From contig OX393552.1 of the NCBI GenBank assembly GCA_947650365.1, positions 53,141,428 through 53,205,427 of the forward strand: 64,000 nt of DNA, written 5' to 3'. Within the stretch, counting starts at the first letter, position 1. Each line of letters opens with the position of its first letter. Source of the DNA: Chamaelirium japonicum (taxonomy: Eukaryota; Streptophyta; Magnoliopsida; Liliales; Melanthiaceae). The position numbers and the translations under genes were made by a program. Shown piece by piece: positions 4,732 to 64,000 of the stretch. The notes below the pieces were generated by a model that was not told the DNA's origin, ran no database searches, and worked only from the letters and a program-made list of their open reading frames with translations.

Positions 4732-4789
4732 GTTACCCCCTCTCAGCTAGATAGGTGCTAACCTAGCTGGCTGGGACTTTCTGGTGCAA

Positions 4790-5500
4790 AATACTGGTCG
4801 CTCGTCTACCGACTTCCTGTCCGAGGTCGACCGTCACACCTGTCGACCCCCTGTCAGGGGCTAGCCGGGTGTGCGTCTGCTGACCCGTTGCACAGGGCTG
4901 ATCGTCGTCTGTCTGCAGACCCCCTGTCAGGGGCCGATTGTTGCGCCCGCCAACCCCTGTCAGGGGCCGACCGAGTGTGTGTCTTCTAACCCATTGCACG
5001 AGGCCGACCTTCGTCTGTATACCAACCCCCTGTAAGGGGCCAACTATTGCGCCCGCCGTCCCCCTGTCAGGGGCTAGCCAGGTGTGCGTTTGCCAACCAG
5101 TTGCACGAGGCTGATCGTCTTCTATCTGCCGACCCCCTGTCAGGGGCCGACTGTTGCGCCCGTGACCCCCTGCCAGGGGTCGGCCGAGTGTGCATCTACC
5201 GACCCCTTGTGCGGGACCGATCATTATCTGTCTGTCGACCCACTGCGTGGGTCCAACCGTTGCGCCCGCTGACACCCTGCCAAGGGCCGATCGGGTGTGC
5301 GCCTGCCGACCCGTTGCACGGGGTCGACCGTTGTGCCCGTCGACCCCCTACCAGAGGCTGGCCGGGTGTGCGTCCGATCGTCGTCTGTCTGCCGACCCCC
5401 TGCTTGGGGCCGACCATCGTTTGTCTATCGACCCATTGCATGGGGCCAACCATTGAGCCCGCGCGGCCCCCTGCTAGGGGCCGGCCGGGGGCATGTCTGC
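4790..5500. repeat. 107-bp tandem array in the 3' region of the outer element
   Basis: About six GC-rich copies marked by GACCCGTTGCAC-like words near 4879, 4988, 5093, 5198, 5307 and 5427, with sub-repeats CCCCCTGTCAGGGGCC. Long overlapping frames on both strands reflect the repeat, not genes. Confidence 0.85.
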
Positions 5501-5612
5501 CGACTTCACCCATACCCCTTCCTAGCTGGGACGTCATGGTTCGAACACCGATGGGCAGAGGTGTGGGTGGACGATCGTGCAGGCTGGTAGGGGGGTGGGG
5601 GTTCGACGCCAG

Positions 5613-6461
5613 TAGGGCTGGCAATGGGTCCAGGCCCACATTATTTTTTCGGCACAAGCCTGACCCGTTTTATAGTCGGGCTTTAAAATCAAGGCCCAAG
5701 CACAAACCCATATTCGTGATTCGGACTTGGGCCGAGCCTAGGCCCGAAAAACCTCAATCACTGATAAATAAAAATTTTTGGTTGAAGTTGTTTGGCATAA
5801 TTCAAAATGTCACACTATTGTAATCAAGACATAATACAACCAGATCAAGACCAAATTTTTCTTACTAGGGCTTCGAGTAAATAGGTTTGATCTGCTAGGG
5901 TTTTAAGTAGATAGACTTGATATACTCTACGAGAGCAAGACATCGAGGGCGTCGAGGGGCCTTGAGATCGAGGACTCGAGGGGCCTTGAGACTTGAGAGC
6001 GAGCACTCGAGGGGCCAAGGGCGTCGGGGCCTCGAGACATGGCGTCAAAGGAGCCAAGCCGCATCGCTCCGCTCAGCTATGAACTATGAAGCATTTGATT
6101 CTCTAAACCCATAAGAGATCAAACCCTACTACCGTCATTATATAACCACATATTTAGATTTGGGCCATTTGATTATCACCCATCGAACGACTCACATCAA
6201 TCATAAAGAAACCTAATAAGTTACGGCACTTGTTACTACATTTGTTACGGAACTCAACTTGGTAAATGTTAAATATAGGCTACTAACCTGGTCGGGTTTG
6301 AGCCGGACCCATACAAGCCCGAGCCCGGCCTGTTTTCTATTTTGGGCTTGGAATTGAAGCCCACGCCTGATGATTCAACTATAATTGCAAGCCCAAACCA
6401 TGTTAACTACGGGCCAGGCTTAATCGGTCCCAGGCCGGGTTCTGGCCCATTGCCAACCCTA
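5613..6461. mobile_element. Non-autonomous hAT element (849 bp) with 8-bp target duplication
   Basis: Terminal inverted repeats TAGGGCTGGCAATGGGTC (left) and, inverted, TAGGGTTGGCAATGGGCC (right) are typical of plant hAT MITEs. They are flanked by GACGCCAG (5605-5612) and GACGCCGG (6462-6469), an 8-bp duplication with one mismatch. The interior carries GGGC-rich words resembling the ends in inverted order (for example GGCCCGAAAAACC and GGTCGGGTTTGAGCC) and a duplicated CGAGGGGCCTTGAGA motif. It encodes no transposase. It is inserted in the 3' region of the outer gypsy element. Confidence 0.9.
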
Positions 6462-7464
6462 GACGCCGGTAGAAGGCCAGAGTCTGGCTGAGGGGACCCC
6501 CTGGGGCTGGGGTAGGCAAAAACCACCCATGGGGGGGTCGGATGCATACAAAGGGGAATGGGGGGTCGATTGCAAAAGGGAAAGGGTGGGGGGGCTGATT
6601 GCAAATGTAGGGAAAAAAGGGGTGGAAATCGTGAGCCGAGCTACGTACGACGAGAGGTAGCGGTCGCATCCGGGATCGAAATCCGCCGATTTCAAAGCTA
6701 GTGCGACCCTTTTATGACCCTCTATAAGGGTGGCCATAGATGAGGGGGGAACGAGGCCTAGAAGACCATAGTATCATGAAGGGAAAACGGGACAAAAGGC
6801 GAGTTAAAAATCCAAATTGCGCAAGGGAAACATTGTGAAATCGCGACCCAGAGCCACGTACGACGAGAGGTAGCGGTTGCATCCGGGATCAGAATTCACC
6901 GATTTCAGAGATAGTGTGATCCTCGCATGACCCTCTACAAGGGCGCCTAGAGATTAGGGGAGAACAAATTTAGGACTAGTACTAGATTTTGATGGGAAAA
7001 CGGAATAAAGAGCGAATCGATAGGAAAACGGGATTTGAGGGGGTCGGTTTTTGTGTAGCTGTTGGAGGGGGGGTGGGGAGTGGTTTTGGTGCACAGGGTG
7101 GATCAGGTTTGGCGCGCAGCCGTGGGGGCGGGGCGCGGTTTTGGCACATAGGGTGGATCAGGTTTGGCGCGAAGGGTTGGGGGGGGGGGGGTTCGTGTTT
7201 GGTGCACAGGGGGGGGACGGGGGGGCGGGTGGGGAGGGGGGAGTCGGGGGGGAGCGGGGGTCGGGGGTCGGGCGTCGACTGGAGACGGAAACGGGAGGGG
7301 GGGTGTTGGTTGCGCCCCTCCTCTCTTCTCTCTCTCTTCTCTCTCTTTCTCTCTCTCAGTCTCTTTATTTTGTCCTTTCTCTCTCTCCCGCTCTCTTTTC
7401 TCTCTCTCAGTCTCTTTGTTCTCTTCTCTTTCCCGTCCTCTTACAGCCCACTGAGCACAAATTA
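6462..7464. repeat. Outer-element 3' region: 211-bp duplication, G-rich block and pyrimidine tract
   Basis: A segment of about 100 bp (TACGACGAGAGGTAGCGG ... GACCCTCTATAAGGG) at 6631-6730 recurs at 6842-6943, a 211-bp spacing. Bases 7030-7310 are extremely G-rich, with a repeated unit of about 70 bp (GGGTGGATCAGGTTTGGCGCG, at 7098 and 7153), and are followed by a CT-rich tract (7314-7440). Long frames over this stretch on both strands are low-complexity artefacts. Confidence 0.7.
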
Positions 7465-7762
7465 TGAGAAAAGCAGAGTATGTAATGCAAGGCTCAATGC
7501 TTTGCCTTGTGTATTTCATTGCTATATATAATGTTTATAGATGAGAGATCAATGGGATTGCATCCCATAAATTATGTAAATGTTACAACTTATTACAGCT
7601 GATAAGGAAAGAGATTGAATGGGTTGCAGCTATTGTGAAGGGGCTGCAGCTGTTGTAGCAGAGAAGGAAAATGCAACTGTTGGAGCAAAGAAGGAAAGTG
7701 AGTAAGGGGCTGCAGCTATTGTGAACAGCTGTCCCTAGCACGATGACAGCTCACATCTCACA
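7465..7762 (-). repeat. 3' LTR of copia-2
   Basis: 298 bp, about 92% identical by eye to 13343-13640. A TATATATAA box lies near 7519-7531 in the outer part. Followed on the inner side by GCCCCCCTCAAGCTC, the complement of a polypurine tract. Confidence 0.9.
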
Positions 7763-7775
7763 GCCCCCCTCAAGC

Positions 7776-9671
7776 TCACGAGGGGAAGTCTTGCACATTG
7801 AGCTTGTCTCGAAGCCAGAGAAAACGCGGGCCGGGTAGCCATTTTGTGAATATATCAGCAACTTGATCTTTGCCGGAAATGTGGGAGATGGAGATGTCAC
7901 CACGCAGGACATGATCACGAATAAAGTGAACATCAATGTCAATATGTTTGGTGCGACTGTGGAAGACGGGGTTCTTGGACATGTGGATTGCACTTATGTT
8001 GTCGTAAAGGAGTAGAGGTGTATCCCGTAATTTTTTTGAAGGGTAAAAAACGAATATATTACTGAAAAAGGAAAGCGATTACAGAACATGGCTTGTCTCT
8101 GGGTGAGAAAGCATACCACGCGACCAAAAAGTGTCTTCAACAACAACAAAACCCTAACTCATCACACGGAGAGCAGACCGACATGGTAGCCCCCAGTCGA
8201 GAGGAACACAACCCGCAATACTAGAATCTAAACCTAAGACAATCACAATGGAGCACAGTGCATCCGATTCTTAGCAGCACTAGCTAGTCCCCCCTCCTCC
8301 TTGAAACCCTATCAGATTGACCCTTTGGCCAAGATTCTTTAGCTCGGGATGCAATCGCTGGATTCGGCATGGTAAGAAATGTGGGCCGATTGGCAAGATG
8401 GGGGGGGGCAACTGCTTGTACTGATCAAAGGAATCCATGGGATAAGCATCACCTGCTACCTCCGCTCGATCTGGAACCTCCCCATCTTCAACACAGAGAT
8501 CATGCAAAACACCTGACGACTGCTCACCAGATAGCCCTACCGCACTCTGAGTCGAAGCCTTTCGAAGAGCTCGTTGAAGAGCAGGAATAGAAATACTGGG
8601 GTTCCCTTCTCATTGATTCCGCCTACCAGTAGACTTCTTAGCACCTCCAACTAAGACCTCACTCCCACTAGTAAGAGCTAAGACGATCGGTCTCTGCCCC
8701 TCACTAGCTGTACTCTCTGCTTGCATAACAGCCCCTGTAGTCTCTTGCATAACAGTGCCTGCAGTCTCTGGTGTAGCAGTGCCAGACGCTTGCGTAACAG
8801 CAGTCTCTGGCAATGTTACGCTATCTGCAGCAATGGGATCACCATCAGGTGGTGTAACACCAGCATTTGCAGTGCCTCCAGAGAACGTTACATCAATATT
8901 TCCTCGTGTAACATCATCCTCAGATGTCCTACCATTAGCCTCATGCGTAACAAGAGCCCTTCGTGTAACATCAGGCACTGCTTGTGTTACAACAGCTTCA
9001 ACACAACCACCATCTCTCAAACCTTTAGCTATTACAACACCTTCCAGCTCTGCAACATCTGCATTACAGACAACAATGACAGCATTTGCAACACCATCAG
9101 CACCACCCTGACCTGCACCCATCACCGCAGAACCCATAGCCAATGTTCCATCAGCTAAAGTAGCAGCCTTAGTTGTGTCAGCAACATTAGCGGCCTGAGT
9201 GGCAGAATCTGTAATTTCAGCACCAACACCACTAAAATCAACATTAGCAGCCTTAGGTGTATCCCGTAATTGAATGTGAAGTCGGCGGAGAAGATGAATA
9301 TACCAAAGAATTTCAGTAGTTGTGGAAGCAAGTGCTAGATATTCTGCCTCGGCACTAGAGCGAGAAACCATAGCTTGTTTCTTGGCACCCCACGAGAGTA
9401 GATTGGGCCCGAGGTAGAAAGCGTAACCCGAGGTAGATCGACAGCTATCTGGGCAGCCTGCCCAATCGGCATCAGAGAAGGCATGGAGCTTTAAGTCAGT
9501 GGACCTGGATAAACAAAGGCCAAGGGAGAGAGTGCCTTTGACATATCTGAAAATTCGTTTGACAGCCGCTAGATGAGAGGAGCAAGGATTTTGCATAAAT
9601 TGGCAAACATGGTTCACGGCATAAGCAATGTCCGGCTGGGTCATAGTAAGATATTGGAGACAGCTCACCAT
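7776..9671 (-). pseudogene. copia-2 RNase H region, split by a LINE-type insertion
   Basis: Minus-strand frames resemble the copia RNase H domain: DADWAGC, the SAEAEYLAL motif and a C-terminal part with HISGKDQVADIFTKWLP. The domain is interrupted at 8033-9254 by the insertion described separately. It is part of a decayed copia element and is not expected to be active. Confidence 0.88.
8033..9254 (-). mobile_element. Target-primed retrotransposon insertion (LINE-type or retrocopy), 1222 bp
   Basis: A perfect 17-bp direct duplication, AGGTGTATCCCGTAATT, flanks it (8016-8032 and 9255-9271). Its 3' end on the minus strand finishes in a short poly-A (plus-strand TTTTT after the duplication) preceded by TTTTTTACCCTTCAA. 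Together these show L1-type target-primed reverse transcription. The body does not show endonuclease or reverse transcriptase. Instead, 8610-9254 encodes an Ala/Thr/Val-rich, low-complexity stretch on the minus strand (for example VTLPETAVTQASGTATPE) and 8280-8507 a second short frame. It could be a 5'-truncated unusual LINE, a non-autonomous LINE derivative or a retrocopied host transcript; I cannot decide. Confidence 0.8.
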
Positions 9672-9699
9672 TTGGCGATAAATGGAAGGATCGAGAAGA

Positions 9700-10700
9700 G
9701 GATCCGAGATGATGGCTGATAGCTGGAGGCCGCCTTCTAGAGGACTTTTGACGGGTTTAATTCCAGATAAGCCGAAATGCTCAAGAAGTTGGAGCGCATA
9801 TTGAGTTTGAGAGAGAACGAGTGAGGTAGAATCTCAAATCACTTGCATACACAGGAAAAAATGCAAATCGCCAAGATCTTTCATAGCGAATTGAGTGGAG
9901 AGGCATCGGATTATACGTTGAAGTACAACAGTATAGCTCCCGGTGAGAATGATATTGTCCACATAGAGTAGGAGCATAGCAATGCAGCCACCATGTTGCC
10001 AGAGAAACAGAGAGGTGTTGTGGGGACAACCCTGGAACCCGAGCTGAAGAAGGAAAGTAGTGAACTTTGTGTACCATGCCCGAGGCGCCTGTTTGAGGCC
10101 ATATAGAGCCTTGTGAAGTCGGCATACATGGGAGGGTCGTTTTGGGTCAACGAAGCCCGGTGGTTGATGAAGATAAACAACCTCCTCTAAATCACCATGG
10201 AGGAACACATTGGTAACATCAAGTTGACGGAGCGGCCAAGTGAAGGAGAGGGCCAAAGATAGGATGAGACGAAGGGTCCCAGACTTGACAACAGGGTTGA
10301 ACGTTTCGTCAAAGTCGAATCCCTCGCGTTGGTGGAACCCTTTGGCGACCAAACGAGCTTTGTAATGCTCAATTGATCTATCAGCACGATGCTTGAGTCG
10401 ATATACCCACTTGCACCCAACAATGTTCATGGAGGGTGCAAAAGGGACGAGAGACCAAGTAGAGTTCCGGGTGAGAGCGGAAATTTCTTGCTGCATGGCA
10501 TGAACCCAATGAGGATCAACCACTGCTTGTTTGTAGGTTGTTGGCTCAGGCGGGTGATCCTGCAAGTTAGCAAGAACAGTGAGAGGCAGAGGATGACGAG
10601 TAGCCAATAATACCTTTGGTCATTGTGTGCCATCACGGGTTAGAGTCACCATTGGGTGACCCGTCTGATTGGAAGAGGGAGTAGTAGCAGCAACTGGTGG
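9700..10700 (-). pseudogene. copia-2 reverse transcriptase region
   Basis: Contains the copia RT landmarks: VGCKWVYRLK, QLDVTNVFLHGDL, ALYGLKQAPRAW and the catalytic LLLYVDNI variant of the YVDD box, in family order. Non-functional fossil. Confidence 0.9.
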
Positions 10701-10959
10701 AGTGGCGGGGATCGGCCCAGCAGTGTGACGACTGTGAGGCTTGGTAGCCGTCGAATGGTTGGGCCAAGGAGGAACAAGTAGACTTGACCGAAGAGGCTCA
10801 GTCTCAGCTCCTGCGAGAGATGGTCCAGCTGATACTGTAGAAGTGTCGGGGCTACCGGTAGTAGTCAATGGAGTTGGTGCAGCTATAAGGGTGACATCCG
10901 GTGCGGTCGTGGAAGCATTATTTAAAGGCGCAACCAATGTCGGTGACTCGGTGGTAGCG

Positions 10960-12215
10960 ACTGGTTAGGAGGTGACAGGATCGGGCAAGATGACTGGTAG
11001 AGAGGGAGGCGGCTGAAAAGCGGGGTGCAAGGATCTGACGAAGAACACCATGAGGAAATCCTTGATAGCGAAATGCCGGTGGGGAGGAAGGCGGGGTTGA
11101 TGCAAGTGCTTGAGCAAATGGAAAGCTGCTTTCATTAAAGGAGACATGTCAGGAGAGATAGATCTTGCCGGTGGAGATGTCAAGGCATTTGTAGCCTTTG
11201 TGCTGCCCACTGTATCCGATGAACAAACATTCGAGAGACTTGTAGTCAAGTTTCCCATGACCAAATGGTTCTAGGAGTGGAAAACATGCACAGCCGAGGG
11301 TCCTCAAATGATTGTATGAGAGATGAGAGCCAAAAAGAGCCTCAAAAGGTGTTCGATCCTGCAGAGGCTTAGAAGACAAACGATTTATTAAATATATAGC
11401 AGTGGCAAATGCGATGTTCGAAAAATTTGAAGGTAAGCTAGCATGAGCCATCATAGTAAGACCGGTCTCCACAATGTGCCGATATTTTCTTTCTGCTAGT
11501 CCATTTTGTTCTGGAGTCCCTGGACATGAGAAAATATGAGAGATCCGCTCCTGAAGAAAGTAATAACGAAGTACATGACTTGCGTATTCTCCGCCAGCAT
11601 CAGTTTGAACGATTTTGACCCTTCTATTGAGCTGGTTTTGCATGAAGGTAATAAACTGAATAAAGAGTTGACCAACCTCTGACTTACGCCGTAAGGGAAA
11701 GTACCAAGAGAACCTAGAGCGCTCATCCACTATAATGAGATAAAAGCGAAAACCATCCATGTAGGTGGTGGGTGCCGGTCCCCAAACATCACTGTGGAGG
11801 GTATGTAGTGGTTCATGAGAGTAAGATTCACGTCTTGAAAATAGAATTTTGGATGACTTCCCAAGCTTACAGCTTTGACAGAAAGATTTATTAGCTTGAC
11901 CAGAACATTCTAAAAAAGGGTACAAATTTTTCAATAGATAAAAAGATGGATGTCCCAAGCGTGCATGCCAAGTATCGCTATCAGTTTTATTTGAGAAGAA
12001 GCCAGCTGCGGGAAGAGGATCACCAACGCCGATGGGATACAGTCCTCCATGTTTAGATCCTTCCAGCACTATTTGTCCGGTCTTCAGATTCTTTATTGCA
12101 AAGCCCCATGGATAAAAGAGAAAACAACAATTATTATCCTTTGTGAATTCAGAGACACTTAAAAGGTTTTTCTTCAGTTGAGGGACCACAATGCAGTGAT
12201 GTATGAGGAACAATT
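10960..12215 (-). pseudogene. copia-2 integrase region
   Basis: Shows the pre-integrase zinc motif region (WHARLGHPS and CQSCKLGKS), the integrase core (LHSDVWGPAPT, QTDAGGEY and PEQNGLAERKYRH) and the downstream LGCACFPLL and CLFIGYSGQHKGYKC motifs typical of copia. Part of the decayed element. Confidence 0.92.
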
Positions 12216-13320
12216 AGATGACCCATATCAGAGATTGGAAGACCTTCCCCATTTCCTACCATGATAGAATCAATTCCGGAGTATGGAGTCATACCTTCAA
12301 CATGGGAAGGACCCGCAGCCATATGATTGGTGGCCCCTGTGTCGGGGTACCATGCGGGATCATCAGCTATATGCATTGCAGCAAAGGTCTGGACGGAGTC
12401 CCCGAGAGCAGAATCTGGAGCGAAGCAGTTGTTGGTCTTGTGATAGAGATGGCCACAACGATAACAATACACTTCAGAATTTTTGGACGGTCCATTTTGA
12501 GGAGATGCACGACCGCCACATTAGTTGGAGGATCCACGAGCGCCACGATGAGTATGTTGAGGAGTGCGGCCTCTACTACGTCTACCTCGATGGTTAGTAT
12601 GGCTACCCCGACGTCTCCAGAGTTGGAGCGACCGTGGCCGCGGGAAGAGGAGGAATACATGGCAGTGGGTGGCTCAACCATTGCCACTGAGCGAGTTGCT
12701 TGGAGACATAGTTCGAAGTCAAAGATGAGAGCAATGACTTCATCAATAGTGGGAAAATCTTGAGATAGATTAACATCCACTACTATGGAATCATATTCGG
12801 AGCCGAGGCCCCGAAGAATCCAGCTGATGAGGTTATCATCATCAATTGGCTTCCCAACCCTCGCAAGTGCTTGGGCAAGGAATTTGGCCTGATGAACATA
12901 GTCGGAGACAAAGAGGGCACCTTTCGAGAGAGATTGAAGCTCAGCTTTTAGCTATTGGATGCGGGCTCTCGTGAGTATGCCATAAAGAACCTCAAGTGTA
13001 TGCCAAACCTCAATAGAGGTTGTGCATGTCCCGATTTGGGTAACAGGCGGCTCTGAGAGAGTTTGTGAGCCAAGAAAACACCATTTGGTCGAACCGGACC
13101 CATTGAAGGGCATTTGGAGAGGAGTCAGCTTCATCAGGACAGAGAGTAGTACCGTCGACGAACCCAAGGAGACCATGCGATCAGAGGACCGGGAGAACTT
13201 GGGTTTGCCAAGGAAAGTCGTTTGTGGCTGAAAGCTTGATGGAAACATCTTGACGAATGGCTTTGACAGTGGGAAAGGGGCGAGGGTGTTGGCGTCGGGG
13301 GCATCAGCAGAAGACATGGT
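12150..13320 (-). pseudogene. copia-2 gag and protease region
   Basis: The N-terminal gag part starts near 13316. A CCHC zinc knuckle (CYRCGHLYHKTNNC) lies near 12430-12470, followed by the aspartic protease active site in WYPDTGATNHM. Order and spacing are typical for copia polyproteins. Confidence 0.85.
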
Positions 13321-13342
13321 TGTCTTAGGCTCTGATACCATA

Positions 13343-13640
13343 TGAGAAAAGCAGAGTATGTAATGAAAGGCTCAATGCTCTGCCTTGTATATTTCATTGC
13401 TATATATAATGTTTACAGATGAGAGATCAATAGGATTGTATCCCATAAATTATGTAAACGTTACAACTTATTACAGCTGATAAGGAAAGAGATTGAATGT
13501 GATGTAGCTGTTGTGAAGGGGCTACAGCTGTTGTAGCAGAGAAGGAAAATGCAGCTGTTGGAGCATTGAAGGAAAGTGAGTAAGGGGCTGTAGCTGTTGT
13601 GAACAGCTATCCCCTGCATGATGATTGCTCACATCTCACA
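13343..13640 (-). repeat. 5' LTR of copia-2
   Basis: 298 bp, TGAGAAAAG to CTCACA. On its inner (left) side is the initiator-Met primer site. Confidence 0.9.
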
Positions 13641-14215
13641 CATATTACGGGGGGTGTGGGGGTGCCGATCGGGTGAACAGGGGGTCATCTGGTCAGGGGA
13701 TGAACTAAAGCACCTGACCCATCAGAATTCTGCAGTGAAGCATGCTCCCCTCCGTGACGGACTCTGGAGTCCGCTGACGCGGATCCGACAATCCCCGTTG
13801 CGCACCGACACCTCCATGTGGATCTCCTTCAAGCCCTCATTAGATCAACGCTGACGGGAGAGGTGGCTGTCCGCCATATGCGGCACGGGAGTGAAGCTAA
13901 GAACCCCTCTACTATTCATGCATGGCTGATGGCATGGCTTTGAAAATTCAAAAGCCCTTTGAGGGTAATAATATAAAATGGATTTTGGGTGTTGAATTGG
14001 GTTGTAGGTTAAGAACTCGATCCATTTGTCTTTCGACCTGACCCAATTACCATTGGATTATTTGGGGGTGTGCCGTTCCATCCGGTGTCGGAATTCAACG
14101 AAACCAGCGACAACGGACTCAGTTTTCCAAGCCCTTCGGCTTATTAAAAGCCAAGGTGATGTGAAGGCCCTCGAGTCAGTTGGGGTGGCGGTGTGCCTGA
14201 GAAAGCTTTGAGGGG
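13641..14215. other. Unclassified part of the outer element's 3' region
   Basis: No repeat period and no recognisable coding. It begins with a short G-rich patch resembling the G-rich block left of copia-2, which is consistent with copia-2 having split one region. Confidence 0.4.
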
Positions 14216-14219
14216 GTTG

Positions 14220-17200: not shown

Positions 17201-17455
17201 CAAAGCCTGCCTCAGACTTTGTCTTTGAATACCGAGGTGGAGGTTGCCTCGGGCCAAGACGATGTCGATGTCTCAGGCTTTGCTTTCGAATGCTAAGGCT
17301 GTCGCCTTCGGCTGAGAGAGTATCGTCGTCTCAGGCTTTGTCTGGTACCGAGGCAGCGGAGCCTACCTCGGGCTGTGCATTCGAATTCCAAGGCTGTCAC
17401 CTTGGGCCGAGACGATATTGCCGTCTCGGGCTTTGTCTTTGAATGACAAAGGAAG
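14220..17455. repeat. 98-bp tandem array, about 30 copies
   Basis: A GC-rich unit of about 98 bp with landmarks TCGGGCTTCGTCAGGTGCC, CGGCGAAGCCTGCCTC, GACTTTGTCTTCGAATGCC and GCCTCGGGCCGAGACGG. Units degrade at both ends (14220-14430 and 17280-17455). Because 98 is not a multiple of 3, the reading frame rotates from copy to copy, so many open frames up to 200 codons appear on both strands; I treat them as artefacts. It lies between the 3' LTR and gag of the outer gypsy element. Confidence 0.9.
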
Positions 17456-17479
17456 GACATTGGGCTTGTTGATCGATGG

Positions 17480-18630: not shown

Positions 18631-18639
18631 AGTAGAAGT

Positions 18640-20942: not shown

Positions 20943-21019
20943 GTTATCCCTTCCAAGTTAGCTAGGGATCATTCTGGCTGGCTTGGATTCTTGGTGCAAA
21001 ATTAACAACCCCCTGCCAC

Positions 21020-25452: not shown

Positions 25453-25459
25453 TGTATTT

Positions 25460-48490: not shown

Positions 48491-49034
48491 TGTCCGCGCA
48501 AGGTGTCTCTGCCGCATCTGCCCATTATGCCACCAGGTCGCTCAACGAGCAATACTGCATGGCATCAAGCCGTGTAAGGTGTCTCACCGCGTCTGCCCGT
48601 GATATCACCAGGTTGCACAACGATCTAATCTGTGTGGCATCAGGCTGCGTAAGGTGCCTCCGCCGTGTCTGCCCGTGATGTCAACATGTCGCTCAACGAA
48701 CGAAACTGTGTGGCACCAGGCCACGTAAGGTGTCTCCATCGCATCTACCCGTGATGTCACCAGGCCTCTCAACGAGCTAAGCTGCATGGCATCAGGCCGC
48801 GTAAGGCATTTCCATTGTGTTTCCCCGTGATGTCACCAGGTCGCTCAACGAGCACAACTGCATGGCATCAGGCCGCGTAAGGTGTCTCCGTTACGTCTGC
48901 CCTTGACGTCACCAGGTCACTCAACGAGCTAAACTGCGTGGCATCAGGCCGAATAAGGTGTCTCCATCGCGTCTGCCCGTGATGTCACCGATTGCTCAAC
49001 GAGCAAAACTGCGTGGCATCGGGCCGCGTAAGGG
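48491..49034. repeat. 76-bp tandem array, about seven copies
   Basis: The marker AAGGTGTCTCC recurs near 48500, 48576, 48651, 48727, 48803, 48879, 48955 and 49030, a strict 75-76 bp period. Landmarks: GTCTGCCCGTGATGTCACC, GGTCGCTCAACGAGC and GCGTGGCATCAGGCCG. It passes directly into the 152-bp array. Confidence 0.92.
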
Positions 49035-52000: not shown

Positions 52001-55000
52001 AAATATAGGGAGTGTTGTAGTAATCCTAAAATTAGAGAGACATATTGTGAGGCTCTTAGAGGGTTTTTTAAGAAGGAGTGCTTGATTTATAGATAATTTA
52101 CTTATGATTTATAGGTATTTTTGGGAGGCAAAGGCGAGCCACTTAATCGGTGTTTTTGGGAGGAATGCTCGATTGTATATAATTTACTTAACGTTGACGG
52201 GTGGGGGTTCAAAAAAAATATAGTGTGGTTTTGGCTCCCTAAATATAGGGAGTTTAGTAGCAATCCCCAAAATAAAAAGCATATTACCAGGCTCTTAGAG
52301 GGTGTTTTAGGAAGGAGTGCTCGATTGTATATAATTTACTTAAGGTTGTCGGGTGGTCAATCAAAAAAAATATAGAGCGGTTTTGGCTCCCTAAATAGTG
52401 GGAGTATAATAGCAATCCCAAAGATAGAAAGGCATATTGAGAGTCTTTTAAAGGGTGTTTTAGGGAGGAGTTCTTAATTTATATATAGTTTATTTATAAT
52501 ATTAGGGTATTTTTAGGAGGCAATAGCGAGGCACATAGAGAGTGTTTTTGGGAGGATTGCTCGATTGTATATAATTTACTTAAGGTTGTACGGTGGGGGT
52601 TCAAAAAAAATATGGAGCGATTTTGGCTTTCTAAATATAGGGAGTCTAGTAGCAATCCTAAAAATAGAGAGCATATTGCGAGTCTCTTAGGGGGTGTTTT
52701 AGGGAGGAGTGCTCGATTGTATATAATTCACTTAAGGTTACCGGGTGGGGGTTCGAAAAAAATATAGGGCAGTTTTGGCTCCCTAAATATAGGGATTCTA
52801 GTAGCAATCCCAAAAATAGAGAGCATATTACGAGGCTCGTAGAGGCTATTTTAGGGTGGAGTCCTCGATTGTATATAATTTACTTAAGGTTGTCGGGTGG
52901 GGGTTTAAAAAAAAATATGGAGTGGTTTTGGGTCCCTAAATATAGGGAGTTTAGTAGCAATCCCAAAAGTAGAGAGCATATTGCTTGGCTATTAGAGGGT
53001 ATTTTTAGGAGGAATGCTCAATTGTATGTAGTGTACTTAAGGTTGTATGGTGGGGGTTGAAAAAAAATATAGAACAGTTTTGGCTCCCTAAATATAAGGA
53101 GTCTAGTAGCAATCCCAAAAATAAAGAGGCATATTATGAAGCTCTTAGAGGGTGTTTTAGGAATGAGTGCTTGATTTATATATAATTTACTTATGATTCT
53201 GGGGTATTTTTGGGAGGCAATAACGAGGCTCTTAGAGGATATTTTTGAGAGGAATGTTCAATTGTGTATAATTTACTTAAGGTTATTGGGTGGGGGTTTA
53301 AACAAAATATGAAGCGGTTTTAGCTCCCTAAATATAGGGAGTCTAGTAGCAATCTCAAAAAATAGAGAGCATATTGTAAGGCTCTTTGAGAGTATTGTAG
53401 GGAGGAGTGCTCGATTGTATATAATTTACTTAAGGTTGTTGGCTGGGGGTTTGAAAAAAATATAGAGCTGTTTTGGCTCCTTAAATATAGGGAGTCTAGT
53501 AGCAATCCCAAAAATAGAGAGGCATATTGCGAGGCTCTTAGAGGGTAATTTTGCGAGGAGTGCTTGATTTATATATAATTTACTTAGATTTTAGGGTGTT
53601 TTTTGGAGGCAATGGCGAGGCTCTTAGAGGGTGTTTTTGGAAACATGCTTGATTATATAGAATTTATTAATGATTGTCAGGTGGGGGTTTTAAAAAAATA
53701 AAATGCTGTTTCAGGGAGAAGTGCTCGATTATATATAAAATAAAGAGCAATCCCAAGAATAGAGAGCACATTGCAAGGCTCTTAGAAAGTGTTTTAGGGA
53801 GGAGTGCTCGATTGTATATAATTTAGTTATGATTATTGGGTGGGAGTCTTAAAAATTTTGGAGCGATTTTATCTCCCTAAATATAGGGAGTCTAGTAGTG
53901 ATCCCTAAAATAAGGAGGCAATAACATGGCTCATATAAGGTTTTTTTCGGAGGAATGCTCGATTGTATATAATTTACTTAAAGTTGATGGGTAAGGGTTC
54001 AATAAAAATATAGAGTGATTTTTGCTCTCTATAAATATCGGATGCCTAGTAGCAATCCCAAAAATAGAAAGCATATTACGAGGCTCATAGAGGCTATTTT
54101 AGGGAGGAGTGCTCAATTATAGATAATTTACTTAAGGTTGTTGGGTGGGCATTCAAAAAAAATATGGAGCTGTTTTGGCTACCTAAATATAGGGAGTCTA
54201 GTAGCAATCCCAAAAATTGAAAGACATATTGCAAGGCTCTTAGAGGGTGTTTTAGGGAGGAGTGCTTGATTTATATATAATTTACTTTTGATTTTAAGGT
54301 ATTTTTAGGAGGCAATGGCAAGACTTTTAGAGGGTATTTTTGGGAGAACAACTCGATTGTATATAGTTTAGTTAAGGTTGTCGAGTGGGGGTTCAAAAAA
54401 AAATATAAAGTAGTTTTGGCTCCATAAATATATAGAGTCTAGTTTCAATCCCAAAAATAGAGAGCATAACGCTACGCTCTTAGAGGGTGTTTTAGGGAGG
54501 AGTGCTCGATTGTATATAATTCACCTAAGGTTGTCCAGTGGGGGAACAAAAAAATATGAAGCGGTTTTGGCTCCCTAAATATAAGGAGTCTAGTAACAAT
54601 GCCAAAAATAGAGAGCATAATACGAGCCTCTTAGAGGATATTTTAGGGAGGAGCTCTTTATTGTATATAATTTACTTAAGTTTTTTGAGTTAGGGTTCAA
54701 AAAAAATATGGAGCAGTTTTGCCTCCCTAAATATAGGGAGTCTAGTAGCAATCTGAAAAATAGATAGCATATTACGCGGCTCTTAGAGGGTGTTTTACGG
54801 AGGAGTACTTGATTGTTTATAATTTACTTAAGGTTGTTGGGTGGGGGTTCAAAAAAAATATGGAGCGATTTTGACTACCAAAATATAGGGAGTGTAGTAG
54901 CAATCCCAAAAATAGAGAGGCATATTATGAGGCTCTTAGAGAGTGTTTTAGGGAGGTGTGCTTGATTTATATATAATTTACTTATGATTTTAGGGTGTTT

Positions 55001-58000
55001 TTGGGAAGCAATGGTGAGGCTCTTAGAGGGTATTTTTGAAAGAATGTTGGATTGTGTATAATTTACTTAAGGTTGTTGGGTGGGGGTTCAAACAAAATAT
55101 AGAACAGTTTTGGCTCCATAAATATAATGAGTCTAGTAGCAATCCCAAAAGATAGAGATTATATTGAGAGGCTCTTAGAGGTTGTTTTAGGGAGGAGTGC
55201 TCATTCATATATAATTTACTTAAGGTTTCAGGTGGGGTTCAAAAAAAATATGGAGCAATTTTGGCTCATTAAATATAGGGAGTCTAGTAGCAATCCTAAA
55301 AATAAAGAGGTATATTGCAAGGCTCTTAGAGGCTGTTTTATAGAGGAGTGCTTGATTTATTAATAAATTACTTATGATTTTTGGGGGTTTTTAGGAGGCA
55401 ATGGCGAGGCTATTAGAGGGTATTTTTGGGAATAATGCTCGATTGTATATAATTAACTTTAGGTTGACTGGTGGGGGTTCAAAAAAAATATAGAGTGGTT
55501 TTGGCTCCCTAAATATTGGGAGTCTAGTAGTAATCCAAAAAATAGAGAGCATATTGCGAGGTCACTAGTGGGAGTTTTTAGTAGGAATACTTGATTGTAT
55601 ATAATTTACTTAAAGTTTTTGGGTTGGGGTTCAAAAAAAATATAGAGCGGTTTTGGCTCCCTAAATATAGGGAGTCTAGTAGCAATCCTAAAAATAAAGA
55701 GCATATTAGGCTCTTAGAGGGTGTTTTAGGGAGAAGTGCTCGATTATTTATAATTTACTTAATGTTATCAGGTGGGGGATCAAAAAAAATACAGAGCGAT
55801 TTTGGCTCTCCAAATATAAGGAGTCTAGTAGCTATCCTAAAAATAGAGAGGCATGTTACAAGGTTCTTAGAGGGTGTTTTAGGGAGGAGTGCTTGATTTA
55901 TATATAATTTACTTATGATTTTACGGTGTTTTTGGGAGGTAATGGCGAGTCTCTTAGAGGGTGTTTTTGGGAGGAATGCTCGATTGTGTATAATTTACTG
56001 AAGGTTGTCGAGTGGGGGTTCAAACAAAATATGGAGCAGTTTTGGCTCGCTAAATATAGGGAGTTTAGTAGCAATCCCTAAAAATAGAGAGCATATTGCG
56101 GTGCTCTTAGAGGGTATTTTAGGGAGGAGTGCTCAATTATATATAATTTACTTAAGGTTGTCGGGTGGGGGTTCAAAAAAAATATAGAGCGGTTTTGGCT
56201 CCTTAAATATAGGGAGTCTAGTAGCAATCCTAAAAATAGAGAGGCATATTGCGAGGCTCTTAGAGGGTGTTTAAGGGAGGAGTGCTTGATTTCTATATAA
56301 TTTACTTATGATTTTTGGGTATTTTTGGGAGGCAATGACGAGGCTTTTAGAGGGTATTTTTGGGATGAATGCTCGATTGTATATAATTTTCTTAAGGTTG
56401 ACGGATCGGGGTTCAAAAAAAATATAGAGCGGTTTTGGTTCCCTAAATATAGGGAGTCTTCTAGCAATCCCAAAAATAGAGAACATATTACCAATCTCTT
56501 AGAGGGTGTTTTATGAATGAGTGTTCGATTATATATAATTTACTTAAGGTTATCGGGTGGGTGTTCAAAAAAATATGGAGCTGTTCTGGCTCCCTAAATA
56601 TTGGGAGTCAGTAGCAATCCCTAAAATAGAAAGGCATATTGAGAGTTTCTTAGAGGGTGTTTTAGGAAGGAGTGCTTAATTTATATATAATTTACTAATG
56701 ACCTTAGGTTATTTTTGGGAGGCAATGGCGAGGCTCTTAGAGGGTATTTTTGGGAGGAATACTCGATTGTATAAAATTGACTTAAGGTTGTCGGGTGTGG
56801 GTTCAAAAAAAAAAAAGGATCGATTTTGGCTCCATATATTATAGGGGGTCTAGTAGCAATCTCAAAAATATAAAGCAAATTGCGAGTATCTTAGAGGGTG
56901 TTTTAGGAAAGAGTAATCGTTTGTATATAATTCACTTAAGGTTGTTAGGTGGGGGTTCAAGAAAAATATGGGACAGTTTTTGCTCCCTAAATAAAGGGAG
57001 TATAGTAGCAATCCCAAAAATAGAGGGCATATTGCGAGGCTCTTAGAGGGTGTTTTAGGGAGGAATGCTCGATTGTATATTATTTACTTAAGGTTGTCGG
57101 GTGGGGGTCTAGTAGCAATTTTGGCTCCCTAAATATAGGGAATCTAGTAGCAATCTCAAAAATAGAGAGCATATTGCGAGGCTATTAGAGGGTTTTTTTA
57201 GGAGGAATGCTCGATTGTATATAATTTACATAAGGTTGTTGGGTGCGGGTTCAAGAAATATATAGAGTGGTTTTGGCTCCCTAAATATAGGGAGTCTAGT
57301 AGCAGTCCCAAAAATAGAGAGCATATTAGGCTCTTAGAGGGTGTTTAGGGAGGAGTAATCGGTTATATATAATTTACTTAAGATTGTCTGGTGGGGGTTC
57401 GAAAAAAATATTGGCTCCCTAAATATAGGGAGTTTAGTAGCAATCCCAAAAATAGAGAGGCTTGTTGCGAGGCTCTTAAAGGGTATTTTAGGGAGGAGTG
57501 TTTGATTTATATATAATTTACTTATGATTTTAGGTTATTTTTGGAAGGCAATGGCGAGGCTCTTAGAGGGTGTTTTTGTGAGGAATGCTCGATTCTTTGT
57601 AATTTAGTTAAGGTTGTCGGGTGGGGTTCTAACAAAATATAGAGCGGTTTTGGCTCCCTAAATATAGGGAGTCTAGTAGCAATCCCAAAAAATAGAGAGC
57701 ATATTGCGTGGCTCTTAGAGGGTGTTTTAGGGAGGAGTGCTCGATAGCATACAATTTACTTGAGGTTGTCGGGTGTGGGTTCAAAAAAAATATGGAGTGG
57801 TTTGGCTCCCTAAATATAGAGAGTCCAATAGCTGTCCCAAAAATAGAGAGTATATTGCGAGGCTATTAGAGGGTGTTTTTGGGAGGAATGCTCGATTGTA
57901 TATAATTTACTTAAGGTTGTCGGGTGGGGGTTCAAAAAAATATAGAGCTGTTTTGGCTCCCTAAATATAGGGAGTCTAGTAGCAATTCCAAAAGTAGAGA

Positions 58001-58053
58001 GCATATTAGGCTCTTAGAGGGTATTTTTGGGAAGAGTGCTCGATTGTATATAA
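49035..58053. repeat. AT-rich satellite array, ~152-bp unit with interspersed half-units (left block)
   Basis: The basic unit of about 150-155 bp contains GAGTGCTCGATTGTATATAA, TTTACTTAAGGTTGTCGGG, GGGGGTTCAAAAAAAATATG, the hairpin word CTCCCTAAATATAGGGAG, CTAGTAGCAATCCCAAAAAT, and GAGGCTCTTAGAGGGTG. A variant half-unit of about 80-90 bp (GATTTATATATAATTTACTT, ATGATTTTAGGGTGTTTTTG, GGAGGCAATGGCGAGG) is interspersed. Half-unit positions are spaced in steps of about 152 bp (values near 240, 390, 540, 700 and 830). The many 60-140 codon frames are repeat artefacts. Confidence 0.95.
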
Positions 58054-58458
58054 CTAGTGCATGCCTGTGCCTGTCGGCACTGTAGCGGGCCGCCTTCGGC
58101 GGTAAAACTCAGTCGGATCACCTTCGACGGCAGCACACCTATCGGCACTGTAACAAGCCACCTTCAGTGGTAAGACACCCCTTGGGCATCACCACCGAGC
58201 CTACCACAAATGCACCAGACTCCCTTGCAGACCCCACCTATATACCCATCTCAAGAACCATTGCACATCACCCTCTATTTCTTTTCCCAATTCACTCAAA
58301 CCGAATCAATCAACATAGCCGTCTATTATGCATGCCAATTTTTGTCAACGCCATGACCAAAGATTGTATTAGGCCTATTTCACACTTTGGTCTAAGGGTA
58401 TGGTCTTGGCATTGATAATGGAGATGGTTCCACTCAACTACTCAAGCAATATTTTTCT

Positions 58459-58648
58459 TTAGTGCATGCCTGCCCAATTAGCACGACGCAAGCGCCTTCA
58501 GCGCAACAACCCCCCCCTGAGAGAGAGAAAGATCGGGGGAAGAGAGAGAGAGGGAGGGAGAGAGAGAGATCGGGGAAGAGAGAGAGAGATCGGGGGAAGA
58601 GAAAAAGAACTGGAGAGAGCACAAAACTGACGTCCCTTGTTATATAGA
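58459..58648 (-). mobile_element. Short Helitron-related block inside the Helitron
   Basis: On the minus strand it starts TCTATATAACAAGGGACGTC and AGTTTTGTGC, paralleling the 5' end of the larger Helitron (TCAATATAATAAGGGACGGC, GGTTTTGTGC), and ends GGCAGGCATGCACTAA, paralleling its 3' end (CAGGCATGCACTAG). The right flank is T as expected but the left is T, not A, so it may be an internal duplication rather than an independent insertion. Confidence 0.5.
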
Positions 58649-59199
58649 TTAAACACATATTAAATAATTTAAATTTATAAAATCAGATCGTACTAATGCA
58701 TCCGGAATGATCCAAATAGCCAAGATCTATATTTGGATTGATCAGATCTAGCTAAGATCAAGTCCAAAATAATAGAAAATAAATCGATGGTCTATATTAA
58801 ATAAACAGCATACCCGAGCTCAAAATGGATTGGGTCTGAATCTGGGCCTGCCTGATCCTTGGCTGGGATTAGGCTGAACCTGGTCTGGGTTCAGGTCAGA
58901 TCTGATCTGGGCCTGACCTGGAGTCGGGCCAGGTCTGGTCTGGTCTCGAGCCAGGTCTGGCCCGTCTGGGTTATAAACTGAGTATGTCCCTTGTAACCTT
59001 GTTATTCTATTTGTTTTAACCTTATTGTTCTATTTGTTAAACTAGTGGGTCGGGTTATGGGATCAGTGGATCCGGTCGAGTTGAAAACGGGTTTTAAAAC
59101 CCAATCAAACAAAAAAAAAAGGTTCACTGTATATCTTCTTCCCCGATATTGTTTGGAAACCTTAACCGATAAAAATGCCGCCTAACCCATATGCCGCTC

Positions 59200-59945
59200 G
59201 AACCGCCCAGAATACTGTGATTCACGCACGTGTTGCCGTGATAGTTGAGCGTGTGCCATTGCCAGTAGTCGTTGCAGGTTCTCTCAGAGCCCGACTTTGG
59301 ATGTTGCTTGGAGCAGGCTGGGTTCACCAGGAGCCCACCGTCAAACGCCGTGCGTCTACCCGAAGATTGACTTCGAATGCTGCTTGGAGTCCAATGCCAC
59401 GAGTTGCCATGATAGTTGAGCATGTGCCATTACCGACAATCATTGCGGGTTCTTCCGGAGCCCGACTTCGGAAGTTACTTGGAGTCGGCCGGGTTCGCCA
59501 GGAGCCCATTATCGAACACCGTGTGTAGCTCGATGAGTCTGCCCGAAGACCAACTTCAGACGCTGCTTGGAGTCCAATGCCATGCGTTGCCACGATAGTT
59601 GAGCGTATGCCATCGCCGACAGTCGTTGCAGGTTCTCTCGGAGCCCGACTTTGGACGTTGCTTGGAGCCGGTCGGGTTCGCCAAGAGCCAACCGTCAAAC
59701 GCCGTGTGGAGCTCGATGGGTCTACCTGGAGATCAACTTCAGATACCGCTTGGAGTCTAACGCCACGCGTTGCCGTGATAGTTGAGCTTGTGCCATCGCC
59801 GGCAGTCATTGCGGGTTCTTCCGGAACCCGACTTCGGATGTTGCTTGGAGCCGGCCGGGTTCGTCAGGAGCCTACCGTCAAACACCGTATGGAGCTCGAT
59901 GGGTCTGCCCGGAGACTGACTTCGGATGCCACTTCGAGTTCTACG
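59200..59945. repeat. 182-bp tandem repeat, four copies, inside the Helitron
   Basis: The marker GTTGCC[GA]TGATAGTTGAG (CACGATAG in one copy) occurs at 59232, 59403, 59586 and 59768, spacings 171, 183 and 182. Units are GC-rich and partly open on both strands (59577-60038 plus, 59324-59809 minus). The repeating translation (ARLWMLLGAGRV) matches nothing I recognise. Confidence 0.85.
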
Positions 59946-60258
59946 CCGGTTATGTCGCATGCAGAGGCATCGACGCATGACAAATCGCCGAGCTACGTCG
60001 GGCGTGACAGGCCCGTGCCACCCATCGTTGCTGTGTGATTAGAGAGGGAATATATAGATTGGGGTAGAGAAAGAGACGGAGAGAGAGAGAGAGGGTGAAG
60101 AGAGATAGTACATGGTGAAGATGGGAAAGAGAGATAGATAGAGAGAGATCGGGGGAAGAAGAGAGGGAGCGGCTGTGATCGTGAGAGAGTTTTGTCTAAT
60201 CAGCATTTGGTTCCATTTTGTCTAGTCAGCACAAAACCGCCGTCCCTTATTATATTGA

Positions 60259-63200
60259 TTTACTTAAGGTTGTCGGGTGGGGCTTCAAAAAAAATATGGA
60301 GCTGTTTTGGCTCCCTAAATATAGGGAGCCTAGTAGTAATCCCAAAAATAGTGAGTCATATTGCGAGGCTCTTAAAGGGTGTTTTAGGGGGGAGTGCTTG
60401 ATTTATATATAATTCACTTATGATTTTAAGGTATTTTTGGGAGGCAATGGAGAGACTCTTAGAGGGTGTTTTTAGGAGGAATGCTTGATTGTGTATAATT
60501 TACTTAAGGTTATCGGGTGGGGGTTCAAACAAAATATGGAGCTGTTTTGGCTCCCTAAATATAGGGAGTCTTTCTAAATATAGGGAGTCTAGTAGCAATC
60601 ACAAAAAAAAGATAGTATATTGTGAAGTTCTTAGAGAGTATTTTAGGGAATAGTGCTCGATTATATATAATTTACTTAAGGTTATTGGGTGGGAGTTCAA
60701 AAAAAAATATGGGGCTGTTTTGGCTCCTTAAATATAGGGAGTCTAGTAACAATCCTAAAAATAAAGAGGCATATTGCGAGGTTCTTAGAGGGTATTTTAG
60801 AAAGGAGTGCTTGATTTATATATAATTTACTTATGATTTTAGGGTGTTTTTGGGAGGCAACGACGAGGCTCTTAGAGGGCGTTTTTGGAAGAAATGCTTG
60901 ATTATATATAATTTACTAAAGGTTATCGGGTGGGGGTTCAAAAAAAATATCGAGCGGCTTTGGCTCCCTAAATATAGGGAGTCTAGTAGCAATCCTAAAA
61001 GTGGAGAGCATATTGCGAGGACATTAGAGGGTGCTTTTTTAGGAGGAATGCTCGATTGTACATAATTTACTTAAGTTTTTCGGGTGGGGGTTAAAAAAAA
61101 ATATAGACCGGTTTTGACTCCCTAAATATAGGGAGTCTAGTAGCAATCCAAAAAATAGAGAGCATATTAGGCTCTTAGAGAGTGTTTTAGGGAGGAGTGC
61201 TTGATTGTTTTTAATTTACTTAAGGTTGTCGGGTGGGGGTTCAAAAAAAAATATGGAGCGAATTTGGCTCCCTAAATATAGGGAGTCTAGTAGCAATCCC
61301 AAAAATAGAGAGGTATGTTGCGAGGCTCTTAGAGGGTGTTTTAAGGAGGAGTTCTTAATTTATATATAATTTACTTATGATTTTAGGGTATTTTTGGGAG
61401 GCAATGGTGAGGCTCTTGAGGGTGTTTTTGGGAGGAATGCTCGATTGTGTATAATTTACTTAAGGTTGTCGGGTGGGGTTCAAACAAAATATGGAGCGAT
61501 TTTGGCTTCCTAAATATAGGAAGTCTAGTAGCAATCCCTAAAAATAGAGAGCATATTGCGCGGTTCTTAGAGGGTGTTTTAGGGAGGAATGCTCATTCAT
61601 ATATAATTTACTTAAGGTTGTTGAGTGGGGATTTAAAAAAAATATGGAGCGGTTTTGGATCCATAAGTATAGGGAGTCTAGTAGTAATATTAAAATAGTG
61701 TGGCATATTACGAGGCTCATAGAGGGTGTTTTAGGGAGGAGTGCTTGATTTATATATAATTTACTTATGATTTTTGGTTGTTTTTGTGAGGCAATAGTGA
61801 GGATTTTAGAGGGTCTTATTGGGAGGAAAGCTCGAATGTATATAATTTTCTTAAGGTTGACAGGTGGGGGTTTAAAAAAAATATAGAGTAGTTTTGGCTC
61901 CCTAAATATAGGGAGTTTAGTAGCAATCTTAAAAATAGAGAGTATATTACCAGGCTCTTAGTGGGTATTTTAGGAAGGAGTGCTCGATTGTATATAATTT
62001 ACTTAAGGTTGTCGGGTGGGTGTTCAAAAAAAATATTAAGCGATTTTGGCTCCCTAAATATAGGGAGTCAAGTAGCAATGCCAAAAATAGGAAGACATAT
62101 TGCGAGTCTCTTAGAGGGTGTTTTAGGGAGGAGTGTTTAATTTATATATAATTTATTGATGACTTTCGGGTATTTTTGGGAAACAATAGTGTGGCGTTTA
62201 GAGGGTATTTATGGGAGGAATGCTCTATTGTATATAATTTACTTAAGGTTGTCAGGTGTGGGTTCAAAAAAAATATGGAGTGCTTTTGGCTCCCAAAATA
62301 TAGGGAGTCTAATAGCAATCCCAAAAATAGAGAGCATATTGCAAATTTCTTAGAGGGTGTTTTAGGGAGGAGTGCTCGATTGTATATAATTTACTTAAGG
62401 TTGTCGGGTGGGGGTTTAAAAAAAATATGGGGTGGTTTTGCCTCCATTAATATAGGGAGTCTAGTAGCAATCCCAAAAATAGAGAGCATATTACGAGGTT
62501 CTTAGAGGGTGTTTTAGGGAGGAGTCCTCAATTGTATATAATTTACTTAAGGTTGTCGGGTGGGGGTTAAAAAAAAATATTGAGCGTCTTTCGCTCCTTG
62601 AATATAGGGAGTCTAGTAGTAATCCCAAAAATAGAGAGCATATTGCAAGGCTATTAGAGGGTGTTTTTAGGAAGAATGCTCGATTGTATATAATTTACAT
62701 AAGGTTGTCCGGTAGGGGTTAAAAAAAAATTTGGAGCAGTTTTGGCTCCCTAAATATAGGGAGTCTAGTAGCAATCCCAAAAATAGAGAGTATATTAGGC
62801 TTTTTGAGGGTGTTTTAGGGAGGAGTGTTTGATTGTATTTAATTTACTTAAGGTTGTCGGGTGGGGGTTAAAAAAAAATATGGTGCAATTTTGGCTCCCT
62901 AAATATAGGGAGTCTAGTAGCAATTCCAAAAATTGAGAGGCATATTGCGAGGCTTTTAGAGGGTGTTTCAGGGAGGAGTGCTTGATTTATATATAATTTA
63001 CTTATGATTTTATGGTGTTTTTGGGAAGCAATGACGAGGCTCTTAGAGGGTATTTTTTGAAAGAATGATCGATTGTATATAATTTACTTAAGGTTATCGG
63101 GTGGTGGTTCAAAAAAAATATGAAGCGGTTTTGGTTTTGGCTCCCTAAATATAGGGAGTCTATTAGCAATTCAAAAAATAGAGAGCATGTTAGGGTCTTA

Positions 63201-64000
63201 GATGGTGTTTTAGGAAGGCGTGCTTGGTTATATATAATTAATTTAAGGTTGTCGGGTGGGGCTTCAAAAAAAATATGGAGCAGTTTTGGCTCCCAAAATA
63301 TAGGGAGTCTAGTTGTTATCCTAAAAATAGTGAGGCATATTGCGAGGTTCTTAAAGGGTGTTTTAGAGGAGAGTGCTTGATTTATATATAATTCAATTAT
63401 AATTTTAGGGTGTTTTTGGGTGGCAAAGGCGAGGCTCTTAGAGGGTGTTTTTGGGAGGAATGCTCAATTGTGTATAATTTGCTTAAGGTTCTTGGGTGGG
63501 GGCTCAATGAAAATATAGAGTTATTTTGGCTCCCTAAATATAGGGAGTCTAGTAGCAATTCCAAAAAATCGAGATCATATTGCGAGGCTTTTAGAGAGTG
63601 TTTTAGGGAGGAGTGCTCGATTGTATATAATTTACTTAAGTTTATCGGGTGGGGGTTCAAAAAAAATATAAAGCGGTTTTGGCTCCCTAAATATTGGGAC
63701 TCTAGTAACAATTCCAAAACTAGAGAGCATATTAGGCTTTTAGAGGGTGTTTTAGGGAGGAGTGTTTGATTTATATCTAATTTACTTAAGATTTTAGTGT
63801 GTATTTAGGAGACAATGACGAGGCTCTTAGAGGGTGTTTTTGGGAGGAATGCTCGATTGTATATAATTTACTAAAAGTTATCGGGTGGGGGTTTAAGAAA
63901 AATATAGAGCAATTTTGGCTCCCTAAATATAGGGAGTCTAGTAGTAATTCTAAAAATAGAGAGCATATTGCGAGGCCTTCAGAGTGTATTTTTAAAAGGA
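60259..64000. repeat. AT-rich satellite array (right block), continues past the window
   Basis: Same units as 49035-58053, beginning mid-unit exactly where the left block stopped. Half-units occur near 60417, 60831, 61373, 61763, 62154, 63001, 63397 and 63785. The array runs to the last base, so its full length is unknown. Confidence 0.95.

Follow-up and report, generated by a model that had tools for sequence, protein, structure and literature searches.

A stretch of 64,000 nucleotides from Chamaelirium japonicum (C4:53141428-53205427 of the 1.52-Gb assembly; hereafter the window) holds three retrotransposons of the Tat kind, the third of them only in part, together with several tandem arrays. 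Two of the retrotransposons, E1 and E2, carry short arrays near their 3' long terminal repeats (LTRs). The third, a member of a family called here T, abuts a satellite with a 152-bp unit that runs on past the end of the window. A reading made from the sequence alone had taken the 3' regions of these elements as the nursery of satellites, with several stages of growth lying side by side. Two things that look alike have to be told apart: repeats that are carried in the body of a retrotransposon, and a satellite that perhaps merely sits in one.

Short arrays in the window were detected by Tandem Repeats Finder (TRF) and by self-BLAST. The 152-bp array, on the plus strand, begins with a segment (49051..58053) in which 152-bp units are mixed with shortened units of about 88 bp, and resumes at 60249, continuing to 64000 and past the window to about C4:53354339, as judged by TRF, rightward reading and probes. 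Between the two segments lies a foreign insert (58054..60248), recognized by TRF and by comparison with T loci, with a 183-bp repeat at 59232-59947 and GA tracts. It was considered as a remnant of T and rejected as such, for only patches of 69 bp and 74 bp, plus a 39-bp partial repeat, match a T locus (L043). The whole array spans C4:53190478 to ~53354339, about 164 kb, of which some 83 kb plus the last 93 bases were read. It runs on through seven 10-kb pieces to the right of the window, and the pieces of it that were read contain no N. Within a further stretch of ~79 kb, three of four 100-bp probes gave satellite and one did not, and more satellite lies at C4:53353857-53354186, where there are matches in the last 0.5 kb. 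The sequence-only reading had put the array at more than 12.7 kb; it is indeed long, and its true span is far greater.

At its left end the satellite abuts a 76-bp array that belongs to a T element of like orientation. The T LTR at this end (LTR a, 46922..48337, minus strand) is taken to be the 3' LTR of the satellite-bearing element, and is known also from copies elsewhere in the genome. Its limits come from homologous copies with target duplications (ATTAC/ATTAC in L044, GCATT/GCATT in L033), in which the LTR starts with TGTCGGGGG and ends with GGCACCATCA. TRF and self-BLAST find one 76-bp array inside this LTR (47506-48049, core 47507-47971) and a second, internal to the element and adjoining the LTR (48481..49033, core 48494-49033), an arrangement that other T copies share. 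The region behind the LTR, second array included, recurs in T copies throughout the genome, and 76-bp clusters, flanked by T sequence, reach lengths of up to ~3.7 kb. It had been claimed that the 76- and 152-bp arrays follow a third LTR. That is so for the second 76-bp array, with the 152-bp array directly after it, but the first 76-bp array belongs to the LTR itself.

The right end of the satellite lies in the T locus L042 (C4:53354247-53357763). Bases 1-93 of that locus are satellite, and from base 97 onward it is 81-86% like the gag start, leader and primer-binding site (PBS) of the T copies L031 and L041. This stretch carries one 465-bp insert and is followed by LTR b at C4:53355747. Extending the array rightward had been suggested as a check on the sequence-only reading, which an end in unrelated DNA, or a 152-bp unit foreign to every Tat-like element, would have told against. 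What was found is an array that runs out, on this side, into the part of a T element made up of gag start, PBS and LTR, and that has T-element DNA on both flanks; on this count the result favors the reading.

LTR b doubles as the first LTR of a neighboring T copy, T-Y, whose other LTR (LTR c) is at C4:53360316. Only about 2.4 kb separates the 76-bp array of T-Y from its 5' LTR, and queries with the reverse transcriptase (RT) and RNase H of E2 find no match in the pieces of T-Y, the one copy examined fully. In L031 and L041 the gag of T matches that of E2 over ~190 aa at 31% identity, with E values from 2e-22 to 2e-25, and the copy L037 has a weaker match. A PBS-type sequence, CCCACAGACGGCGCCAAA, is common to E1, L031 and L041 and is one base off in E2 and L042. 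The PBS-type sequence, the likeness of gag and the short interior of T-Y together mark T as a gag-only, Tat-like, non-autonomous family.

The 152-bp block appears to sit inside such an element, since its flanks are complementary T halves in the same orientation, each directly abutting the satellite. The two halves (T-X) would once have been one. An alternative view is that two different T elements flank the block by chance, or were joined by the assembly, and the phylogeny of the LTRs leaves some room for this. The IQ-TREE tree is star-like and pairs b with c (support 89/79), leaving LTR a outside, and a tree in which a, b and c are held as one clade is neither supported nor rejected (AU p 0.28). 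Furthermore, LTR b also serves T-Y, the pieces of T-X are not clearly nearer to T-Y than to other T copies, and ~79 kb of the span is seen only through four probes, one of them not satellite, and the matches in the last 0.5 kb. Against this view stand the complementary flanks, which meet the satellite directly and in one orientation. The target flanks, GTCAT beside LTR a and GTTAT beside LTR c, are equal at 4 of 5 bases (chance ~1.6% by my own arithmetic), FastTree groups c, a, L041 and b at 0.84, and the absence of N from the array pieces that were read also speaks against a faulty join. I consider two separate elements improbable. Dating by LTR pairs was abandoned; all three LTRs are old, in a tree of the star-like form just described.

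There is also the view that a T element inserted into a satellite array that was already there. Ogre insertions into satellite arrays are reported (PMC7004042), but the order of the parts contradicts such an event here, in that the satellite stands between the two halves of the element. Nor was satellite found on the far side of LTR a, where 46.9 kb of window and a further 10 kb were covered, or in the 1.5 kb of L031 to the right of its matched LTR part. This view is scarcely credible.

The 152-bp unit is far from confined to this locus. An exact search with a 26-mer of the unit gave 4,794 places genome-wide (control 0). Among the first 100 of them, 54 of the 55 on C1 fall in one 111-kb block, from C1:13.215 to 13.326 Mb, and at least 45 on C2 extend over at least 97 kb, with changes of strand. 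From the number of places and the density of the sampled arrays, the genome would hold roughly 10.8 Mb of the satellite. Eight arrays on C3, C4, C7, C9 and C12 have consensus sequences that differ at 0-2 of 149 positions, and monomers are as alike between arrays (identity 0.819-0.836) as within them (0.814-0.844). In the T-held array there are 422 full monomers, each about 10% from the consensus, and identity is flat with distance in the array. The number of differences in a monomer follows nearly a Poisson distribution (mean 15.2, variance 17.9), with G>A and C>T at the highest rates. The near-equal consensus across arrays, and identities within arrays no higher than those between them, are as expected after a single burst of amplification and decay without homogenization. 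Most simply read, monomers that were almost uniform, a few variants among them, would have spread across the genome in one burst and decayed independently thereafter.

The arrays of this satellite show several further features. The strand changes head-to-head at L024 ~9000 and L026 ~6410, a short piece is inverted at L028 ~1124, and more changes of strand occur on C2 near 30.169, 30.179 and 30.207 Mb. Hits of equal or near-equal score lie at parallel offsets in C12:9.625-9.643 Mb and C12:10.060-10.078 Mb, ~434.7 kb apart, and likewise in C10:51.65 Mb and C231 and in C8:41.925 Mb and C3:78.943 Mb, which suggests duplicated segments of satellite or, for C231, a second assembled copy. A lone exact 26-mer at C1:124372973, among the first 100 places and far from the C1 block, is possibly a lone monomer or a short array, relic or seed. 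An insert of ~0.63 kb (L024:2044-2680), with ends AGGGGTGGCAA and TTGCCACCCCT and a direct repeat TTGTCTGGT, probably represents a small DNA transposon, and is in parts similar to the 465-bp insert of L042. At the end of a satellite stretch in L022 stand direct repeats (1552-2563 and 8213-9224) that are 97% alike, together with a motif on the minus strand like GGTATCAGAGC, which I take to be a PBS. They are probably the LTRs of an element inserted into the satellite block. At L012 ~650-800, L016 ~6030-6140 and L021 ~7280-7450 the unit is interrupted around position 40 by TA-rich tracts, which perhaps come from growth of microsatellites inside monomers. I make no claim of a breakpoint hotspot at unit positions 20-42, as the interruptions there mix TA tracts, insertions and strand changes.

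Was the satellite born in this T element? The sequence-only reading supposed so: a short repeat in the 3' region would have expanded, and the other blocks of the genome would have been seeded from there. The position suits it, since the block appears to lie in a Tat-like element that has gag only, 3' of where gag starts. For Lathyrus, satellites born from the 3' regions of Ogre are reported (PMC7004042), some of the arrays being mostly in pol-less elements. The divergence of T and that of the satellite are of similar depth, and the two junctions are close in unit phase. Against it stand the other T copies, as far as they were covered. T-Y was read from its 76-bp array to its 5' LTR; where the satellite stands in the other copy it has 1.4 kb, made up of the core of gag and the sequence from there to the 76-bp array, and the 152-bp unit has no match in that 1.4 kb. 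The block has taken the place of the gag core as well. Four further T copies have 1.45-1.56 kb between their last listed 76-bp match and the start of gag, as compared to 1.42 kb in T-Y (my own arithmetic), which leaves little room for an array.

Searches at other loci give the same answer, each within its own bounds. Twenty T loci, the window's own included, were examined as 3.5-kb pieces with 1.5 kb to each side of the LTR part, in which little of the interior is visible. Of these only L042, the far end of the same array, shows the 152-bp unit, and none of the 18 others does in the piece around its LTR. Four enlarged T copies, with one 300-bp probe each, gave no satellite at the probed spot (0/4); two of the probes, L052 and L053, are T pieces, and the other two, L050 and L051, match no examined locus and by eye read like Copia coding sequence. 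The exact left junction was found only at this locus among the best 40 of 2,726 candidates scored, and the exact right junction only here among the best 40 of 2,872, the likeness at the other 39 starting at query base 93-112, the edge of the satellite. Finally, the monomer at the left edge is a variant that occurs inside other blocks, at five other loci and each time with more satellite upstream of it, so it belongs to the general pool of the satellite. No short array of the unit came to light in other T copies within the limits of these searches, and a birth in the 3' region of T is left unsupported. I regard it as unlikely, and rank entry of a block into the T copy above it.

The other short arrays of the window lie in E1 and E2. 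E1 (3958..42939, minus strand) is recognized as a Tat-like LTR element from LTR homology, a remnant of gag and a 5-bp target duplication, AGTTG, read from the sequence at 3953-3957 and 42940-42944. LTR homology places its 3' LTR at 3958 to ~4732 and its 5' LTR in two pieces, ~33230-33596 and 42521-42939, all on the minus strand; self-comparison shows that the 5' LTR is split by another LTR-type pair (33693-35057 / 41158-42524). A broken gag (18828..19526, minus strand), which the gag of E2 matches in tblastn at 57% identity (E 2.7e-82) and in which three stops were counted, is the only piece of its coding part that was found; the RT and RNase H of E2 have no match anywhere else in the window, E1 included. 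Two elements are nested in E1: E2, and a Copia element (7463..13640, minus strand) with RVT_2, gag_pre-integrs and rve domains and LTRs (7463-7762 / 13341-13640) that are 92% alike. Between the gag remnant and the 3' LTR lie arrays with units of ~107 bp (4844..5320, by TRF), 98 bp (14219..17437, core 14378-17280) and 200 bp (17494..18626, core 17521-18588), the last two found both by TRF and by self-BLAST.

E2 (20110..32937, minus strand) is by its LTRs, target duplication and domains a Tat element of the Retand type. Its LTRs (20110-20942 / 32105-32937) are 96.4% alike, and the 5-bp duplication AGGTT stands at 20105-20109 and 32938-32942. A domain search finds pieces of gag, RT-RNase H, a second RNase H and integrase over 26395..31671 on the minus strand. 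A second RNase H after the RT-RNase H is a marker of Tat, and in E2 it is seen as RT_RNaseH plus a separate open reading frame (ORF) with RVT_3/RNase_H. The integrase lies downstream of the RNase H in two open stretches, with Integrase_H2C2 above its cut-off and rve slightly below (31.2 of 32.6 bits). Between pol and the 3' LTR runs an antisense ORF (22746..24152, plus strand) with a weak profile match to PF04195 (Transposase_28; E 2.8e-5, 24.7 bits against a cut-off of 26.2), in the position and direction that fit Retand. Beside the 3' LTR, TRF and self-BLAST find the array of 100/118-bp units (21121..22260, core 21121-22241). TRF shows no 90-bp array in the window; self-comparison gives a two-copy repeat of ~178 bp at 25625-25974.

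The arrays that had been described are mostly real, with periods of 107, 98, 200, 100/118, 76 and 152 bp, and it is only the one of 90 bp that TRF does not find. It also holds that the 107-, 98-, 200- and 100/118-bp arrays stand in two Tat-type elements, with the 3' LTR to one side and what is left of the coding part to the other; in E1 a piece of gag is what was found of it. The idea that all these arrays are stages of one series finds no support. The 152-bp unit shows no likeness in shuffle tests to either 76-bp unit or to the 107-, 98-, 200- and 118-bp units (lowest p 0.18). The notion that 76 and 152 bp are unit and dimer fails, since the halves of the 152-bp unit are unlike each other (p 0.97) and unlike either 76-bp unit on either strand (p 0.94-1.0); the two halves have a weak inverted likeness (p 0.026, one of 16 tests). 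Moreover, a 26-mer of the 118-bp unit occurs at 87 places genome-wide (control 0), all 87 of them in short clusters, 48 by my own grouping, the longest spanning 1.3 kb. A 23-mer of the 98-bp unit occurs at 207, and the 100 of these that are listed lie dispersed, alone or a few together, apart from two on C4 at a distance of 7.8 kb. Among the 40 best loci the 98-, 118- and 200-bp units also lie in dispersed small clusters, an appearance that says nothing about array length; judging length in this way was dropped, because the 152-bp arrays known to be long look just the same there. C4 has three sites at which units of 98 and 200 bp are no more than 2.5 kb apart and in the order they have in E1, as expected if one element carries both.

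I propose that the short arrays (98, 107, 200, 100/118 and 76 bp) are family-specific parts of the 3' region or the LTR of Tat-type elements, and that the 152-bp repeat is a separate satellite of the whole genome, one block of which entered a T copy from outside. I lean toward this account, with a good deal of reserve. The short arrays would have spread with E1, E2 and T by transposition. A burst would have seeded large 152-bp blocks on many chromosomes, and in the course of it a block of ~164 kb would have entered a T copy, replacing ~1.4 kb, perhaps when an amplified circle integrated or when a break was repaired with satellite as the template. Homogenization would then have stopped, leaving each monomer to decay by itself to ~10% from the consensus. 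In its boldest form, a single burst would have seeded blocks of ~100-160 kb (where their extents are seen) across many chromosomes, including one that landed in a lone Tat-like element, and concerted evolution would then have ceased altogether, so that each monomer became an independent clock. This form I put forward tentatively, as it is rather more apt to fail than to stand.

Several observations weigh against entry from outside and a single burst. The junction searches scored 40 candidates each and for exact joins only, and would pass over a T copy with a short array of 152-bp units at some other place inside it. No true edge of another block was seen, L020 ending in a run of N and L022 at the probable insertion of an LTR element, so the other blocks could lie in T elements too. 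In unit phase the two junctions differ by no more than ~11 bp, as amplification in situ would also give (chance ~15% by my own arithmetic). Pure independent decay is hard to square with a ratio of transitions to transversions of 1.38 in the satellite, as compared to 3.29 in the T LTR, or with the few unit positions at which 35-52% of monomers have a second letter or a gap, which are shared variants. Lastly, the end branches of T-family LTRs have a median of 0.10, the same as the decay of the satellite. The two may share a time of origin, though they are unlike in sequence make-up and the likeness gives no date.

If a block did enter T from outside, then the edges of the T-held block would record how a whole satellite array came into a transposon. 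A satellite with no array-specific homogenization would also provide a clean test case for the spread of blocks and for the speed at which unequal exchange stops.

That satellites can come from the 3' regions of Tat elements is established (PMC7004042, which cites Macas and others 2009); the Ogre-derived FabTR satellites of Lathyrus sativus are described there. They resemble the case here in that arrays lie inside elements of the Tat lineage downstream of gag or gag-pol, pol-less elements included, and in that short and long arrays are found in one genome. They differ in that the FabTR unit occurs as short arrays in many copies of the element, whereas the searches made here, within their limits, place the 152-bp unit in a single T copy, and in that the blocks sampled here lack array-specific homogenization. 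The same source describes Ogre with an archaeal RNase H. The make-up of E2 matches the description of Retand elements in PMC11963269: a long region between pol and the 3' LTR, tandem arrays in that region and repeats specific to the family. Retand also has an antisense ORF with PF04195 there; the antisense ORF of E2 scores just below the curated cut-off for it. Unlike Retand as described there, E1 and T are gag-only. The tandem repeats of maize reported in PMC3648361 are linked to Ty3/gypsy elements, as here, specifically to centromeric retrotransposons, whereas the 152-bp unit has no match to the element in which it appears to lie.

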